Shown: positions 5,223 to 27,355 of the stretch, in pieces | Layout: every line of letters starts with the position of its first letter | Numbering within the stretch: the first letter of the stretch is position 1 | NCBI GenBank assembly: GCA_017381475.1 | Contig: JAFOCD010000062.1 | Location: 1-41,279 of the forward strand | Direction of reading: 5' to 3' | Length of the DNA stretch: 41,279 nucleotides | From: Bacteroidaceae bacterium | GTDB taxonomy: Bacteria; Bacteroidota; Bacteroidia; Bacteroidales; Bacteroidaceae | Made by a program: the position numbers and the translations under genes | The notes under the pieces: generated by a model | Databases searched by the model: none | The model's input: only the letters and a program-made list of their open reading frames with translations | What the model was told of the DNA's origin: nothing

Positions 5223-5829
5223 CGGTTCAGTAGAAAAAGGGTGTGGGTAAATCTTGAATTTTAGGCAGTAGATTTTACCCTTAATCAGTTGTCTTATATT
5301 CTTATTGTTTTCGTTCTATCTTGTACTTTTTAGAAAAAAAGTACGAAAAACTTCGGCACACGGGAAAGGCTTTAGCCTTCGACAACATGAGCGGCGAATG
5401 GTCAAACGTAGTACGGGCGTAGCTCGTACCGTTTGGGTCGCTAAAAGCGAGTGTTGTCAAAAACAGTATTATTCAAATATTGGATTTTTAACTTGGTTGA
5501 AATTGCTTGCGCTCGCTGCAAAATCTCAAACTAGTTTGGTTTTTGCTCACTTACGCGTAACTTTCCGCCGTTGGAGGGGAATTACATTTGCAAAGGGATA
5601 CTCCGCGAACTTTGCTGCGTACAATGGTAATATCAAAGAAAAACCGGCACTGTGTGAGCAACAGTCGTTGTTGGCGGCAAATGAGGAAAAAGAATGGGTG
5701 ATTTTTAGTTATGAAAAGAATATATAAAACGACTACAAAGAAAATACAAGTGAACGATTAAGGTTGAGATTAGCCGTTGAATTAAATGGAGAGCGAAAGC
5801 GATATCCACACTAAATTTCTACTGAACCG
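5223..5829. mobile_element. Putative non-autonomous element bounded by 27-bp inverted repeats
   Basis: CGGTTCAGTAGAAA (5223-5236) is repeated exactly in inverted orientation at 5816-5829. Extending inward to 27 bp (5223-5249 against 5803-5829) gives 22 matches. The 607-bp interval contains stacked hairpins: about 5245-5280 (GGGTAAATC/GATTTTACCC), 5323-5344 (GTACTTTTT/AAAAAGTAC), 5366-5379 (AAGGC/GCCTT), a branched fold closed by GACAACA (5381-5387) and TGTTGTC (5452-5458), and 5518-5546 around the palindrome CAAACTAGTTTG. An open frame of 140 codons (5305-5727) runs through these hairpins and has no recognisable domain, so I do not call it a gene. The architecture fits a MITE or remnant transposon. 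No clear target-site duplication was found. Confidence 0.45.
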
Positions 5830-5961
5830 TAAAAAGCCCGGCTTGCTAATATCTTTCGGGTAAATATCACATATTTGTGGAAAATATGTTCTTTATTCAT
5901 AACATATACCTCTTATATATAATTTTTAATGGAAATGTAATTCGATTATAAAAAAAAAGAC

Positions 5962-5969
5962 TAATTTTG
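5962..5969 (+). promoter_or_regulatory. -7 element of the ilv operon
   Basis: TAATTTTG is an exact match to TAnnTTTG. Transcription would begin near 5975, giving a leader of roughly 108 nt before ilvD that contains the leader peptide and the terminator described below. Confidence 0.6.
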
Positions 5970-5982
5970 CGCCAGTTTTAGA

Positions 5983-6021
5983 ATGTGTCCGGTAGTCGTT
6001 GAAAACAATGACATTCAGTGA
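5983..6021 (+). CDS. ilv leader peptide (MCPVVVENNDIQ)
   Basis: A 12-codon open frame starts a few bases after the predicted transcription start and encodes MCPVVVENNDIQ. It has three consecutive valine codons (GTA GTC GTT, 5992-6000) and one isoleucine codon near the end. Valine and isoleucine are end products of the pathway encoded directly downstream. Ribosome stalling at the Val run when valyl-tRNA is short would change folding of the leader. The Val codons lie inside a small hairpin, GTCGTTG (5995-6001) with CAATGAC (6006-6012), loop AAAA, and TCCGG (5988-5992) can pair with CCGGA (6025-6029). Translation is not demonstrated; the call rests on codon content and context. Confidence 0.6.
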   Translation: MCPVVVENNDIQ

Positions 6022-6034
6022 TTTCCGGAACTCT

Positions 6035-6065
6035 CCTTTCTCCCAAATAGAGAAGGGCGTTTTTT
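6035..6065 (+). terminator. Attenuator terminator in the ilv leader
   Basis: CCTTTCTC (6035-6042) pairs over 8 bp, including one G-U pair, with GAGAAGGG (6050-6057) around a 7-nt loop, followed by CG and six T residues (6060-6065). It ends 18 nt before the ilvD start. With the Val-rich leader peptide upstream, it is best read as an attenuator. I could not identify one unambiguous antiterminator pairing. Confidence 0.65.
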
Positions 6066-6083
6066 ATTATAAAATTAAGTAAT

Positions 6084-7886
6084 ATGAAAATAAAATTAAG
6101 GAGCGCACAGTGTACCGAGGGCCGTCGAATGGCGGGAGCGCGTGCACTGTGGATTGCCAACGGCATGAAGCGCGAAATGTTCGGTAAACCAATCATTGCC
6201 ATTGCCAATTCTTTTACTCAACTTGTTCCTGGTCACACTCATCTGCACGAGGCCGGTCAGATTGTAAAGGCCGAGATTGAGAAACTTGGTTGCTATGCTG
6301 CCGAGTTCAATACCATTGCCATTGACGATGGTATTGCTATGGGACACGACGGCATGCTCTATTCATTGCCATCGCGAGACATCATAGCCGATAGCGTTGA
6401 ATATATGTGCAATGCCCACAAGGTAGATGCGTTGGTGTGCATCTCAAACTGTGACAAGATTACTCCGGGTATGCTCATGGCTGCAATGCGCCTGAATATC
6501 CCTAAAATCTTCGTGTCGGGTGGTCCTATGGAAAAGGGTACTTGGAAAAACGAGAACCTTGACCTTGTAATCGCAATGGTAAAGGCTGCCGACAAGAGTG
6601 TGGGGGACGATGAACTTGCAGAGATTGAGAAGCGTTCATGCCCCGGTTGCGGTAGTTGCTCCGGCATGTTCACTGCTAACTCCATGAACTCGCTCACCGA
6701 GGCTATCGGTCTTTCATTGCCCGGTAACGGAACAATCCTTGCAACCCATGCCAACCGTGTGCAATTGCTAAAGGATGCTGCAAAGCAGATTGTTGCCAAT
6801 GCAATGAAATATTATGGCGAGGGTGACGAGAGTGTCCTGCCACGCAGCATTGCATCACGCGCGGCGTTCATCAACGCAATGACTTTAGATATTGCCATGG
6901 GTGGCTCAACAAATACAATCCTTCACCTGTTGGCAGTTGCCGGCGAGGCTGGTGTCGACTTTACAATGACAGACATTGATGCACTTAGTCGTCGTGTACC
7001 TTGTCTATGCAAGCTTGCACCAAACAGCACCAAATACTCAATGCAGGATTGTGGCCGTGCCGGTGGTATAATCGGTATCCTTGGCGAGTTGGCCAAGGGT
7101 GGTCTGCTTGATACAACTGCAGTGCGTGTCAATGGTTCTACACTTGGCGAGGATATTGAAAGATACTGTATCACCGGCGATAGCATTGACAGCGAGGCAA
7201 AGCGCATCTACAGCACAGCGCCAGCAAATGTATTCTGCAACACAATGGGTGCGCAGGAGTGCACTTACGAGACACTTGACACTGACAGGGAAAACGGTTG
7301 CATCCGTTCGTTGGAGCATGCCTACACCCGTGATGGTGGCCTTGCAATCCTCTTTGGTAACATTGCTGCCAATGGTTGTGTGGTCAAGACTGCCGGTGTT
7401 GATGAGAGCATCTGGAAATTCAGTGGCAAGGCAAAGGTGTTCGACTCGCAGGAGGCTGCCGTTGAGGGAATCCTTGGCGGTGCAGTGCAGGCAGGCGACG
7501 TGGTAGTCATTGTATACGAAGGACCAAAGGGTGGCCCTGGTATGCAGGAGATGCTCTATCCCACATCGTACATCAAATCGCGTCATCTTGGCAAGGAGTG
7601 TGCACTCATTACCGACGGCCGTTTCAGCGGCGGAACATCGGGCTTGAGCATTGGTCACATCTCGCCCGAGGCTGCTGCTGGTGGGAATATCGGCAAGTTG
7701 CGCGACGGCGATATAATTGACATTGATATTCCTGCACGTACCATCAATGTTAGACTCACCGATGAGGAACTTGCGGCGCGTACAATGTTCCCATTGACAC
7801 GCGACCGCGTTATCTCAAAGAGCCTCAAGGCATATGCCTCAATGGTAAGTTCTGCCGACAAGGGTGGTATAAGAATAATAGAATAA
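6084..7886 (+). CDS. ilvD: Dihydroxy-acid dehydratase
   Basis: 600-aa enzyme converting 2,3-dihydroxy-isovalerate and 2,3-dihydroxy-3-methylvalerate to the 2-keto acids in valine, isoleucine and leucine synthesis; cytoplasmic. Motifs visible are [11 protein letters not shown] near the N-terminus, [10 protein letters not shown] (Cys123), [17 protein letters not shown] (Cys186/189/192), and C-terminal [11 protein letters not shown] and [10 protein letters not shown]. The segment [10 protein letters not shown] lacks the extra cysteine of [2Fe-2S]-type enzymes and resembles the E. coli type, which carries an oxygen-labile [4Fe-4S] cluster; that inference is from family knowledge. It is the first gene of ilvD-ilvB-ilvN and lies just behind the putative attenuator. 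Confidence 0.97.
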
Positions 7887-7893
7887 TGTATAT

Positions 7894-9591
7894 ATGAACA
7901 ACAAAGAAATGATAACTGGTAGTGAAGCGCTTCTGCGCTCACTCATAAACGAGGGCGTTGATACCATCTTCGGTTATCCCGGCGGTTCAATCATGCCGGT
8001 CTTCGATGCTCTGTATGACTATCGCAACAAATTCCGCAATGTGCTTGTCCGTCACGAACAGGGTGCTGTGCATGCAGCGCAGGGTTTTGCCCGCAGTTCG
8101 GGTAGGGTGGGTGTCTGCATTGTGACAAGCGGCCCCGGAGCTACAAACACACTTACAGGTATCAGTGATGCCATGCTCGACAGTACACCGGTAGTTGTCA
8201 TTGCCGGCCAGGTTAGCTCATCTGTGCTTGGTACCGATGCTTTCCAGGAGATTGACTTCGTAGGTATCACACAGCCTATTACCAAATGGAGCTATCAGGT
8301 GCGCCGTCCCGAGGATGTTGCTTGGGCTGTAGCGCGTGCCTTTTATATTGCAGGCACAGGCCGCCCAGGTCCTGTTGTCCTTGACTTTACAAAGGATGCA
8401 CAGGTGTCTATGGTTGATTATCAGCCTGCGACAGTAGACAGCGTACGTAGCTATATCCCTTATCCAACCCCCTCAAACAGTGCTATGGAAGAGGCTGCAC
8501 GCCTCATCAATGAGGCCGAGCGCCCACTCATGCTTGTTGGTCAGGGTGTTGAGCTTGGCGAGGCACACGAGGAACTCAAGACATTCGTGGAGAAAAGCGG
8601 TATCCCCGTTGCACGCACACTCATGGGACTTTCAGCTTTCCCTACAGACCATCCGCTTTGTGTGGGTATGCTGGGAATGCATGGAAACTATGGTCCTAAT
8701 GTCAATACCAACAAATGTGATCTGCTCATTGCTGTCGGTATGCGTTTCAGCGACCGCGTGACAGGCAAGCTCTCTACATATGCAAAGCAGGCCAAGGTAA
8801 TACACATTGACATTGACCATGCCGAGATAAACAAGAACGTCAGGGCAGATGTGCCCATCGTTGGCGATTGCAAGGAGGTGCTCGCGGGGCTAACAGCTCT
8901 TGTACAGCCAAGAGAACACAGTGAGTGGGTAAAGAGTTTTGCCGAATATAATGCAATAGAGTACGACAAAGTCATCGACAAGGCGTTGAACCCGACTGAA
9001 GGCCCGTTGCTGATGGGTGAGGTTGCCCGCAAGGTGAGCGAGGCCACTGCCAACAGTGCGATACTTGTTACCGATGTAGGCCAAAACCAAATGATGTCGA
9101 GCCGCTATTTCAAGTTTAAAAAGCCACACAGCATTCTCACATCGGGTGGTCTTGGAACAATGGGCTACGGATTGCCTGCAGCAATAGGTGCGAAGATGGC
9201 AATGCCCGAGCGTACCGTATGTCTCTTTACCGGTGACGGCGGTTTCCAGATGAACATTCAGGAACTGGGAACAATTATGGAACAGGGTGTCGGCGTGAAG
9301 ATGATATTGCTCAATAATAACTATCTGGGCAATGTGCGCCAGTGGCAGGAACTCTTCTTCAACCATCGCTATTCATGGACTCCAATGCTCAACCCCGAAT
9401 ACTCACTCATTGCCCAGGGCTACGGTATCCCATCGCGCCTTGTAATAGAGCGCAGCGAGCTCGATGAGGCTATTCAGGAGATGCTTGCGACCGATGGTCC
9501 ATTCCTCCTTCATGTTGCAGTAAAGGAAGAGGACAATGTAATGCCAATGACAGAACCGGGTGCGACAATCAGTGATATGAGATTTGAATGA
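7894..9591 (+). CDS. ilvB: Acetolactate synthase, large (catalytic) subunit
   Basis: 565-aa ThDP-dependent acetohydroxyacid synthase catalytic subunit. It condenses pyruvate with pyruvate or 2-ketobutyrate, the first common step of branched-chain amino acid synthesis. Domain order is a ThDP-binding N-terminal domain with the cofactor-activating Glu55 in LVRHEQGAVH, a central FAD-binding domain, and a C-terminal ThDP domain with GDG (447-449) through NNN (474-476), binding Mg-diphosphate. Length is normal. It starts 7 nt after the ilvD stop and ends 7 nt before the ilvN ATG, so it is cotranscribed with both. It requires the small subunit encoded next for full activity and feedback control. Confidence 0.97.
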   Translation: MNNKEMITGSEALLRSLINEGVDTIFGYPGGSIMPVFDALYDYRNKFRNVLVRHEQGAVHAAQGFARSSGRVGVCIVTSGPGATNTLTGISDAMLDSTPVVVIAGQVSSSVLGTDAFQEIDFVGITQPITKWSYQVRRPEDVAWAVARAFYIAGTGRPGPVVLDFTKDAQVSMVDYQPATVDSVRSYIPYPTPSNSAMEEAARLINEAERPLMLVGQGVELGEAHEELKTFVEKSGIPVARTLMGLSAFPTDHPLCVGMLGMHGNYGPNVNTNKCDLLIAVGMRFSDRVTGKLSTYAKQAKVIHIDIDHAEINKNVRADVPIVGDCKEVLAGLTALVQPREHSEWVKSFAEYNAIEYDKVIDKALNPTEGPLLMGEVARKVSEATANSAILVTDVGQNQMMSSRYFKFKKPHSILTSGGLGTMGYGLPAAIGAKMAMPERTVCLFTGDGGFQMNIQELGTIMEQGVGVKMILLNNNYLGNVRQWQELFFNHRYSWTPMLNPEYSLIAQGYGIPSRLVIERSELDEAIQEMLATDGPFLLHVAVKEEDNVMPMTEPGATISDMRFE

Positions 9592-9598
9592 CAACGAT

Positions 9599-10153
9599 AT
9601 GGAAAAGAAACTATATACAATTATTATATATACCGAGAATATAGCCGGTATGCTCAACCAGGTAACAGCAGAGTTTACCCGTCGAATGATGAACATTGAT
9701 ACCATTACAGCGTCATCATCGTCAATCGAGGGTGTACACCGCTATACAATCTCATTGTGGGGCGAGGAGGATTCTGTAAACAAGGTAACCAAGCGCATTG
9801 AAAAGAAGGTCGATGTGCTAAAGGCCGATTACTACACAGACAAGGAGATCTTCTTCCAGGAGGTAGCCCTCTACAAACTCTCGACTCCAAAGATTCTTGA
9901 GAACAGTGAGATTTCAAGAGTAATACGCCATAGCAATGCGCGTGTCATGGAGGTTAATGCAAACTACACCGTTGTCGAGATTACCGGTTCAACCGATACC
10001 GTGGTGAACCTATACAACGAATTTGTCTCCCTGCAGTGTATGTTGCAGTTCGTTAAGTCGGGTCGTGTGGCAGTGCCACGTGCCCTGCACGACAACCAGG
10101 CCGATCTGCTCTTCAATGAAGACTATAAACGCAAGTCGATAGATAAAAGATAA
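9599..10153 (+). CDS. ilvN: Acetolactate synthase, small (regulatory) subunit
   Basis: 184-aa regulatory subunit. An N-terminal ACT domain (about 4-78, starting LYTIIIYTENIAGMLNQVTA) binds the feedback inhibitor valine, and a C-terminal ACT-like domain (about 85-165) includes VVEITGSTDTVVNLYNEF. The long form of 160-190 aa is usual in Bacteroidetes. I chose ATG at 9599 (MEKKLYTI) rather than an in-frame TTG at 9584 that overlaps the ilvB stop, because the family starts at this position and an ATG is available. It is the last gene of the operon; a strong terminator follows. ilvC, often the next gene in related genomes, is not here. Confidence 0.95.
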   Translation: MEKKLYTIIIYTENIAGMLNQVTAEFTRRMMNIDTITASSSSIEGVHRYTISLWGEEDSVNKVTKRIEKKVDVLKADYYTDKEIFFQEVALYKLSTPKILENSEISRVIRHSNARVMEVNANYTVVEITGSTDTVVNLYNEFVSLQCMLQFVKSGRVAVPRALHDNQADLLFNEDYKRKSIDKR

Positions 10154-10159
10154 GAATCA

Positions 10160-10190
10160 ACAAGTTCCGCCAGCGGAACTTGTTTTGTTA
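10160..10190 (+). terminator. Terminator of the ilv operon
   Basis: ACAAGTTCCGC (10160-10170) pairs perfectly with GCGGAACTTGT (10173-10183), followed by TTTGTTATT. It begins 6 nt after the ilvN stop. Confidence 0.85.
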
Positions 10191-10303: not shown

Positions 10304-11674
10304 ATGAAAAAGTTTGCTTTATTATTAATGTTGGTTTACCCCGTTCTTACTTGGGCGCAGGCAGATGATGTATACTTTGTGCCAAAGAAAGAGAAGAAGG
10401 TGCTCGTTGTAAAGAGTGCTGAGGAGGTATATTTTGTAGATGACAATGATGTGTTGGTAGAGGATGTGTACGAAGCGGATTTGGTAGACACATACTACAC
10501 CAATGACCTTTATGATGTCGTCGATGACTACACCTATTCTAACCGAATCATCAGATTCCGTTCACCTCGCAGGTCGCTTTCAAGTAATCTTTTCTGGGAT
10601 TTGAGGTTTGATTATGGTATATACGACTGGTATATCTATGATACCGGTTATTCAATAGACATATATCCAACCTATAGCAATCCATATTACTACTCTTATT
10701 CCTACAATAACTATTGGTGGAACAGATGGAACTGGAGTTCATACTATTATAGTTGGTACAATCCTCACTATCCACACCACAATAGGTGGCACTGGGGCTG
10801 CAATGACTGGTATGCACACAACTGGCACAATCATAACTGGTATGGGCACGGTTCACACCACTTCAACAAGTATCCCAAATACAACAATCACTATTTGCGA
10901 ACCAATGGCATGCTTTCAACAACAAGAGTAGGAACTCCAGCTCGCAACGATCGCGCAACCCGTCCAACCAATGGTGGCAATAATTCACGTAATGGACATA
11001 ATGCAATAAATGGTAATAACAATCCAGGCCGCGAGCAACAGACACGCACGGCCAATGGCAACAGCAATCCACGCCGCGAGCAACAGACACGCACGGCCAA
11101 TGGCAACAGCAACCCACGCCGCGAGCAGCAGACACGCACAGCCAATGGCAACAGCAACCCACGCCGCGAGCAGCAGACACGCACAGCCAATGGCAACAGC
11201 AACCCACGCCGCGAACAGCAGGCCCGCACAGCCAATGGCAACAGCAGCCCACGCCGCGAACAGCAGACTCGCACAGCCAATGGCAACAGCAATCCACGTC
11301 GTGAGCAGCAGGCCCGCACTGTAAATAGGAACAATGAATCAAGCCGCGGAAATGGTTCTTCAGGAACAATGCGTCGTCAACAGCAGGCAAGAACATCTGT
11401 CAACAGCAGCAATGTACAACGTAACTCGCGTTCTTCAAACAATGGAAGTAGCAGTACTTCTTCTCGCAGCAGTTCATCGTCAGGATACAGCCGCCCAAGC
11501 AGTACTGGTGCATCCCGCAGTTCGGGTTCATCATATTCAAGCGGCTCATCATCAAGCCGCAGTAGCAGTGGCGGCGGTGGTTCAAGCCGTAGTAGCAGTG
11601 GCGGCGGTAGATCTCGCAGCGGCGGTGGTGGCGGTGGATCCCGCAGTGGCAGTGGCGGCGGTGGTCGCAGATGA
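10304..11674 (+). CDS. Secreted Tyr/Trp/Asn/His-rich protein with tandem NGNSNPRREQQTRTA repeats
   Basis: 456-aa protein of unknown function. Residues 1-20 are a Sec signal peptide (MKKFALLLMLVYPVLTWAQA). An acidic segment, about 21-85, is rich in Val, Asp and Tyr. Residues about 106-205 are extraordinarily rich in Tyr, Trp, Asn and His (for example HHNRWHWGCNDWYAHNWHNH). Seven 15-residue repeats run from 236 to 340, basic and Gln/Asn/Arg-rich, followed by a Ser/Gly/Arg-rich tail to 456 that looks disordered. No enzymatic motif is visible. The composition suggests a periplasmic or surface protein that binds metal, DNA or polysaccharide, but that is speculation. It has its own promoter region after the ilv terminator and is followed after 45 nt by a FadL-like outer-membrane protein, probably in one transcript. 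Confidence 0.8.
   Translation: MKKFALLLMLVYPVLTWAQADDVYFVPKKEKKVLVVKSAEEVYFVDDNDVLVEDVYEADLVDTYYTNDLYDVVDDYTYSNRIIRFRSPRRSLSSNLFWDLRFDYGIYDWYIYDTGYSIDIYPTYSNPYYYSYSYNNYWWNRWNWSSYYYSWYNPHYPHHNRWHWGCNDWYAHNWHNHNWYGHGSHHFNKYPKYNNHYLRTNGMLSTTRVGTPARNDRATRPTNGGNNSRNGHNAINGNNNPGREQQTRTANGNSNPRREQQTRTANGNSNPRREQQTRTANGNSNPRREQQTRTANGNSNPRREQQARTANGNSSPRREQQTRTANGNSNPRREQQARTVNRNNESSRGNGSSGTMRRQQQARTSVNSSNVQRNSRSSNNGSSSTSSRSSSSSGYSRPSSTGASRSSGSSYSSGSSSSRSSSGGGGSSRSSSGGGRSRSGGGGGGSRSGSGGGGRR
11009..11323 (+). repeat. Seven 45-bp in-frame tandem repeats
   Basis: Seven units of 45 bp, each coding for a variant of NGNSNPRREQQTRTA. The third and fourth units (11099-11143 and 11144-11188) are identical at the DNA level, while the first and last are the most diverged. 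This points to recent expansion by slippage or unequal recombination, so the copy number probably varies between strains. Confidence 0.95.
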
Positions 11675-27163: not shown

Positions 27164-27355
27164 GCCTAAAAGGCCTAAAAGGGCTTGAATGCCCAAAAGG
27201 CCTGTGGCTCTTTCCGCTTCCCGCTTTCCGTTTTCCGTTTTCCGCTTTCCGTTTTCCGTTTTCCGCTTTCCGTTTTCCGTTTTCCGCTTTCCGTTTTCCG
27301 TTTTCCGCTTTCCGTTTTCCGCTTCCCCCTTTTCGCCCTTTTGGCCCTTTTAGCC
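27164..27355. repeat. Heptamer-based minisatellite flanked by 21-bp inverted repeats
   Basis: From 27224 to 27321 there are 4.7 copies of a 21-bp unit made of the heptamers CTTTCCG, TTTTCCG and TTTTCCG. One strand is almost pure pyrimidine. Outside it, GCCTAAAAGGCCTAAAAGGGC (27164-27184, written here as one 21-bp arm beginning GCCTAAAAGG) is inverted at 27335-27355 with 18 of 21 matches. A 74-codon open frame (27185-27409) reads through it as FRFPLSV repeats, but it is probably fortuitous because the repeat length is a multiple of three. The structure is downstream of the amidase-like gene. Confidence 0.85.

Follow-up and report, generated by a model that had tools for sequence, protein, structure and literature searches.

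A probable remodelled, switch-less descendant of a branched-chain amino acid attenuator upstream of ilvD in a Bacteroidaceae genome

The stretch of DNA analysed here (41,279 nucleotides from a Bacteroidaceae bacterium, hereafter the window) carries an ilvD-ilvB-ilvN leader that we regard, with moderate confidence, as a remodelled and probably switch-less descendant of a Bacteroidales attenuator for branched-chain amino acid (BCAA) genes, whose terminator would today serve as a brake, fixed or leaky, or else be relieved in another way. Judged from their sequences, many gut and rumen Bacteroidales appear to keep BCAA genes under the classic ribosome-sensing RNA switch from which this leader would derive.

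Ribosome-mediated transcription attenuators are known at ilv, leu, his and trp operons of Proteobacteria and Actinobacteria. The parts of the window leader and the genes behind it are the following:

5962 to 5969, + strand: -7 promoter box TAATTTTG, read from the sequence
5983 to 6021, + strand: 12-codon frame MCPVVVENNDIQ, with ATG at 5983 and stop TGA at 6019 to 6021
5985 to 6031, + strand: hairpin H1, 15 bp plus a 2-bp foot, from the minimum-energy fold and a five-genome alignment
6035 to 6065, + strand: intrinsic terminator CCTTTCTC-loop-GAGAAGGG followed by T6, from a terminator scan and conservation
6084 to 7886, + strand: ilvD, dihydroxy-acid dehydratase, 600 aa (ORF)
7894 to 9591, + strand: ilvB-like acetolactate synthase large subunit, the next gene (ORF)
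9584 to 10153, + strand: ilvN-like acetolactate synthase small subunit (ORF)

The gene at 6084 to 7886 is presumed to be ilvD, the name given by the sequence-only reading that preceded this work, and the presumed ilvB-like and ilvN-like genes are named from their sequences. TAATTTTG is taken to be a -7 promoter motif of the Bacteroidota type, and transcription of the leader would start near 5976. The box, the 12-codon frame, its three Val codons (GTA GTC GTT, 5992 to 6000) and the terminator were confirmed, by sequence and terminator scan, where the sequence-only reading had put them. The terminator consists of an 8-bp stem with a loop of 7 (6035 to 6057) and six T residues at 6060 to 6065, the last of which lies 18 nt 5' of the ilvD ATG at 6084. 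A promoter, with its presumed start, and an intrinsic terminator thus precede a cognate biosynthetic gene. Right behind ilvN, at 10159 to 10184, there is an 11-bp inverted repeat that is terminator-like on either strand. Elsewhere, the window holds a 45-base repeat (NGNSNPRREQQTRTA) in 6.9 copies at 11009 to 11319, inside an ORF for a predicted protein (10304 to 11674), and an array of about 18 copies of the 7-base unit CTTTCCG at 27210 to 27336, with a higher period of 21 bases.

The earlier proposal that the Val codons lie in a hairpin at 5995 to 6012 was borne out in part: this hairpin can form, but the minimum-energy fold favours a longer one with the same 5' arm, H1, in which 5988 to 5992 and 5994 to 6003 pair with 6014 to 6023 and 6025 to 6029, and which holds the Val codons inside its 5' arm. 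The energy of H1 is -14.8 kcal/mol (z -3.2), with 1 of 200 shuffles being equally good, and the terminator lies directly 3' of its 15-bp part (5988 to 6029) in the favoured fold. When only the stretch from promoter to terminator was shuffled, with dinucleotides preserved, ATG frames with three Val codons in succession were rare (p 0.002), and four Ile/Leu/Val codons within 10 codons had p 0.019. Tested over 170 nt of this leader, the Ile/Leu/Val content of the peptide was not unusual (p 0.32). The bare terminator scan was rejected as support, as the 8 terminator-like patterns in the 8 kb scanned were about what chance predicts (7.8). The stem at 6035 to 6057 is nevertheless conserved in relatives, though its pattern occurs at chance frequency. 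A known riboswitch or T-box (ppGpp or another Rfam element) was also rejected: the best scores of Rfam covariance models on 5700 to 6300 of the window were far below gathering, and 10 other loci gave a single sub-threshold match, to a plastid family.

ilvD was found at 78 places in 77 of 101 relatives, and the upstream stretches of 71 of these places were read (G067, G070, G076, G082, G086, G092 and G098 were left out). At many loci outside the window's clade, the region 5' of ilvD follows one plan, namely a leader peptide (for example MKIQSLFINLVLVVVVLLEMVG in L019, MLHIILVVILLVISKDARKVCR in L060 and MKNLLNIVLVVVVVISEMK in L065), a GUGAGAAAGG-type segment, a GCCUUUCUC-loop-GAGAAAGGC hairpin and a U run. 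Leader frames rich in Ile, Leu and Val reached p<=0.05 against dinucleotide shuffles at 19 of the 21 loci in the rest of the genus (L036 and L037 fail) and at 18 of 28 ilvD loci outside the genus, and at none of 12 ilvC upstream regions tested as a control. Pairing between an upstream segment and the terminator arm, i.e. the antiterminator, beat shuffles at p<=0.05 in all 21 loci in the rest of the genus, which also have the terminator and switched in all 20 cases simulated. Among the matches listed for 80 named contigs, 67 were assigned to a Bacteroidota type by their titles; 37 of these 67 had the frame at p<=0.03 and 30 had both the frame and the antiterminator (p<=0.10), compared to a frame in 0 of the other 13, both thresholds having been chosen post hoc. 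Bacteroides graminisolvens, Phocaeicola faecalis, Odoribacter laneus and Alistipes are among the listed contigs with both features. The named contigs overlap with the set of relatives (e.g. G041 and L071, with a matching leader).

For the simulation of ribosome stalling, the RNA was folded up to the 5' arm of the terminator and the bases covered by the ribosome were omitted; the energy model is blind to pseudoknots, proteins and folding kinetics. The input consisted of 44 loci, four of them from the window's subclade, with leaders picked by the analyst from frame listings. L037 and L064 had leaders and were omitted, the former because its leader is nearly identical to that of L036. At the 20 loci in the rest of the genus, the terminator arm paired upstream with probabilities of 0.71 to 0.89 when the ribosome was stalled on the codon run versus 0.01 to 0.40 when it stood at the stop codon. 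The same pattern was obtained for 17 loci outside the genus, with the exceptions of L057, which remained almost unchanged (0.71 versus 0.67), and of L049 (0.96/0.52, stalled/stop) and L067 (0.89/0.59), which switched partially. When full-length transcripts were folded, the terminator won at equilibrium despite the stalled ribosome in 4 of 5 intact loci re-tested, with values for L010 varying from 0.15 to 1.0; the model therefore works only if antiterminator pairing precedes that of the terminator, which is also how classic attenuation proceeds. In the window's subclade, stalling on the Val codons gave 0.29 for the window (L001), 0.23 for L002, 0.20 for L003 and 0.01 for L004; L151 gave 0.28 to 0.31. 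Varying the stalled codon and the footprint raised the maximum to 0.30 in the window and 0.31 in any of the five genomes, so the position of the ribosome hardly alters the fate of the terminator arm in the simulated window copy. The ribosome-mediated attenuation proposed by the sequence-only reading is thus supported by frame, antiterminator and simulated switch for the order and the rest of the genus, but not for the window copy itself.

In an ilvD tree of 50 rows made by a quick method, 22 rows including the window formed one clade (SH-aLRT 100) adjoining 15 canonical rows, with six further canonical rows of the genus outside both groups. L001 to L004 formed a subclade with support of 100, and L151 fell elsewhere within the 22 rows, a place that is unsure because only 537 bases of it are available. 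The antiterminator test was passed at p<=0.05 by 1 of 21 clade loci tested (L010) compared to 21 of 21 in the rest of the genus, and an Ile/Leu/Val-rich leader frame at p<=0.05 was found at 1 of 22 versus 19 of 21 loci. L015 was left out of the former test since no terminator was found upstream of its ilvD; L006, L012, L024 and L035 showed weak or displaced hairpins only. The first test of L006, L007, L012 and L024 had used a hairpin other than the family stem. With that stem, L007 and L024 gave p 0.11 and 0.37, respectively, and none was seen by eye in L006 and L012. Loss of the attenuator is patchy, as Ile-rich leaders of the same 22-row clade still switched in the simulation in L010 (0.88/0.26, stalled/stop), L039 (0.75/0.03) and L008 (0.45/0.07); of these three, only L010 passed both the frame and antiterminator tests, L008 and L039 missing p 0.05. 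Since the switch is kept around the clade and mostly absent within it, the canonical attenuator is likely ancestral and was likely lost or turned over in this clade.

The leader version of the window is carried by five genomes only, i.e. L001 to L004 and L151, the ilvD proteins of which are 96 to 98% identical to that of the window (L151 over 179 residues). They have in common the promoter (TAATTTTG in L001 to L004 and TATTTTTG in L151 in the alignment), the 15-bp hairpin and the terminator. In the computed five-genome alignment, 94% of the cells of H1 and 97.5% of those of the terminator are paired. Two H1 pairs changed on both sides, five on one side, and two depart only by unpaired cells; since 70 of 500 shuffles matched the number of two-sided pairs and 12 of 500 the covariation score, H1 covariation alone provides modest support. 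The mean pairwise difference was 0.165 for the stem of H1 and 0.05 for that of the terminator, with 0.30 and 0.57 for the respective loops, and four-fold ilvD sites diverge by 0.41 to 0.61, far above both stems. The leaders are constrained and therefore do something.

The frame and the antiterminator are missing from this group. Folding of the window leader, as the sequence-only reading had suggested, revealed no antiterminator partner for the terminator arm: the best upstream duplex has -3.3 kcal/mol (p 0.97 versus shuffles), and p values were 0.56, 0.63, 0.61 and 0.42 for L002, L003, L004 and L151, respectively. The 12-codon ATG-to-stop frame, whose absence from relatives that reading had named as evidence against its own proposal, is kept in none of the four nearest relatives. 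The stop is lost in L002, a one-base gap in the hairpin loop makes the frame run into ilvD, in frame, in L003 and L004, and TTG replaces ATG in L151, where the remaining 12-codon frame is open. With start, stop or frame changed in all four, the window ORF was rejected as a conserved peptide. Val-Val is found in all five genomes and the triple Val in three of five; as the Val codons lie within one arm of a conserved hairpin, constraint on that hairpin suffices to account for the shared Val-Val. A second frame, read by eye, starts at 6008 and crosses the terminator in the direction of ilvD. It shares the reading frame of ilvD in L002 to L004 and not in the window or L151, and lacks an ATG in L003 and L151.

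Our preferred reading of these data starts from the intact form, in which the Ile/Leu/Val codons of the leader peptide would overlap segment 1, and segment 2 (the GUGAGAAAGG type) would pair either with segment 1 or with the 5' arm of the terminator (segment 3), segment 4 being a predicted near second copy of segment 2. A stalled ribosome would free segment 2, which would then hold segment 3, and transcription would go on. The window and its four relatives would have retained the promoter, a 1:2-like hairpin, of which H1 is the remnant or equivalent, and the 3:4 terminator; the 2:3 antiterminator and the constrained frame would be gone, so that stalling on the Val codons should not relieve termination. 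The window terminator would today most likely be a fixed or leaky brake, or be relieved by a factor other than a stalled ribosome. The parts of this leader, their conservation, the lack of an antiterminator and of a kept frame, and the clade concerned come from computation; where transcription starts, which way evolution went and what the leader does today are our inferences.

A possible, although clearly less probable, account is that the attenuator simply decayed, having been freed from selection as the clade lost amino acid pathways, and left behind a leaky terminator, an account that shares the leaky brake with the preferred reading. Of the 21 clade genomes, none yielded hisG and 6 yielded leuA, compared to 19 and 21, respectively, of the 21 genomes from elsewhere in the genus; these counts omit G006 and G027, where no ilvD was found, and the second ilvD of G002, identical to that of G037 in a genome with 7% contamination. 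The absence of a terminator in L015 and the weak or displaced hairpins in L006, L012, L024 and L035 fit decay as well. The clade genomes are, however, 55 to 97% complete, and the association with pathway loss comes from one clade and is thus not independent evidence; moreover, the H1 and terminator stems of the window's group are far more conserved than four-fold sites, and nearly the same terminator stem precedes ilvC in 4 of the 5 genomes (not G028). In some clade genomes there appears to be a second ilvB/ilvN/ilvC set near leuA (L244 to L247 and L255, in G026, G024, G019, G028 and G022, respectively), with genes recognised by eye.

The ilvC locus bears on a further reading. Elsewhere in the genus, 19 of 21 genomes have ilvC on the ilvD contig, within a few kilobases; it is on a separate contig in G000, G003, G011 and G023, which include the window's genome, where this is the sole ilvC found. 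In these four, a TACTTTCG box is followed by a terminator, CCTTTCTC-loop-GAGAGAGG, the stem of which begins 15 to 16 nt past the presumed start site:

G000, C116, 24436 to 24459: ilvC terminator (L257, L267)
G003, C19, 21652: ilvC terminator
G011, C39, 19933: ilvC terminator
G023, C65, 21461: ilvC terminator

Four-fold sites of ilvC diverge by 0.40 to 0.60 among the three genomes compared. No leader peptide fits ahead of the ilvC stem, and G023 has an ATG within the terminator loop. The stem is also present in G033, with a 94-nt leader; it was not seen by eye in G004, G020, G031 and G040, and ilvC of G028 (L151) lies near leuA, behind an ilvN-like gene, without that terminator. In the window's genome, a strict pattern of the stem occurs at ilvD only and a looser one at three places, namely ilvD, ilvC and one coding site, the last judged by eye to be inside the long coding frame of a phage-like gene; the loose pattern was found in neither G001 nor G007. 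In these four genomes, ilvD and ilvC both have a promoter-proximal terminator of nearly the same stem (CCUUUCUC/GAGARRGG type) and no conserved leader peptide. Provided that these terminators are regulated at all, peptide-free control, for example by a protein or small RNA acting on the shared stem, might have replaced ribosome sensing, giving a two-locus regulon evolved from an attenuator, which we think doubtful.

It is unlikely that the window copy is still a working Val attenuator, in which stalling at GTA GTC GTT would open an antiterminator and let ilvD be transcribed. The promoter, frame, hairpin and terminator stand in the proper order, the frame is intact in the window with a Val run that is rare by chance in the short leader (p 0.002), homologous leaders of the order switch in the simulation, all five genomes share Val-Val, and L151 keeps a 12-codon frame if TTG can start; yet no upstream segment serves as antiterminator partner for the terminator arm (p 0.97), the pairing of this arm under stalling stays at 0.30 or below, and 0 of 4 nearest relatives keep the ATG-to-stop frame. 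Finally, translation of a short frame might suppress the terminator, with a ribosome near or through the stem blocking the hairpin and ilvD thereby coupled to general translation rather than to valine, as the stop lies 13 nt 5' of the stem in the window and L151, the frame passes through the terminator in L002 to L004, and the available part of one report describes a terminator almost silenced several base pairs behind a gene (PMC4824070), but this is hardly likely, since frame length varies, L151 lacks the ATG, frames are open through the terminator also in canonical loci, and valine shortage would turn the operon off and not on.

Lopatovskaya et al. (2010), who compared amino acid attenuation across bacteria, may already list attenuators of Bacteroidetes. 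Among the papers found in the open library, none describes an ilvD or hisG attenuator in Bacteroidales, judged by titles and abstract openings. The ilv, leu, his and trp attenuators share with the window a promoter, a short frame with cognate codons, a hairpin over these codons and a terminator before the biosynthetic gene, here one for BCAA. The leaders of the relatives also share the mutually exclusive antiterminator with classic attenuators, unlike the window copy, which has neither an antiterminator nor a conserved frame. Papers on attenuators of this kind include PMC1262725, PMC1183508 and PMC11857589. Within the phylum, the passages available report strong clues that amino acid operons of Flavobacterium psychrophilum are preceded by leader-peptide attenuators (PMC9723704), so that the class of attenuator is not new there, and describe short ORFs in long 5' UTRs of B. 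thetaiotaomicron (PMC7366714). The same mechanism is proposed in these cases, but ilvD, antiterminators and the loss or remodelling of such leaders are not mentioned in the passages. The ilvD motif WRC-18-2 of Veillonella, in the portion of PMC8632094 available a proposed weak riboswitch candidate reported in Veillonella only, resembles the window in having a structured leader and a possible terminator before ilvD.

Similar leaders were observed at other genes. Upstream of hisG (L172 to L189, 300 bases), His-rich short frames (up to HHHHHH; e.g. MRFYSRHRVHHHHHHLSG and MTMQTVHHHHHHSLT) were present at 17 of 18 Bacteroidales loci at p<=0.015, with L177 failing, and a terminator-like hairpin was near hisG at 16 of 18, sometimes away from the frame. 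On sequence grounds, these leaders likely represent a his attenuator. A search of the window's own genome yielded no hisG. At leuA, loci outside the genus (L192, L204 and L208) have short Ile/Leu/Val-rich frames and a terminator upstream, which in L204 and L208 is of the GCCTTTCTC stem type, as at ilvD, and a leu attenuator of the same kind is possible at these three. Among the genus loci examined, none combined a Leu-rich leader and a terminator upstream of leuA; L205 has a Leu count at p 0.02 without a terminator, and L198 has no start to test.

With these leaders, Bacteroidales gain concrete predicted attenuators of the classic type at ilvD and also at hisG. One genus offers a natural series in which the switch was kept, turned to isoleucine codons, or stripped to a hairpin and a terminator, and this series makes the loss and replacement of attenuators directly testable with reporters.
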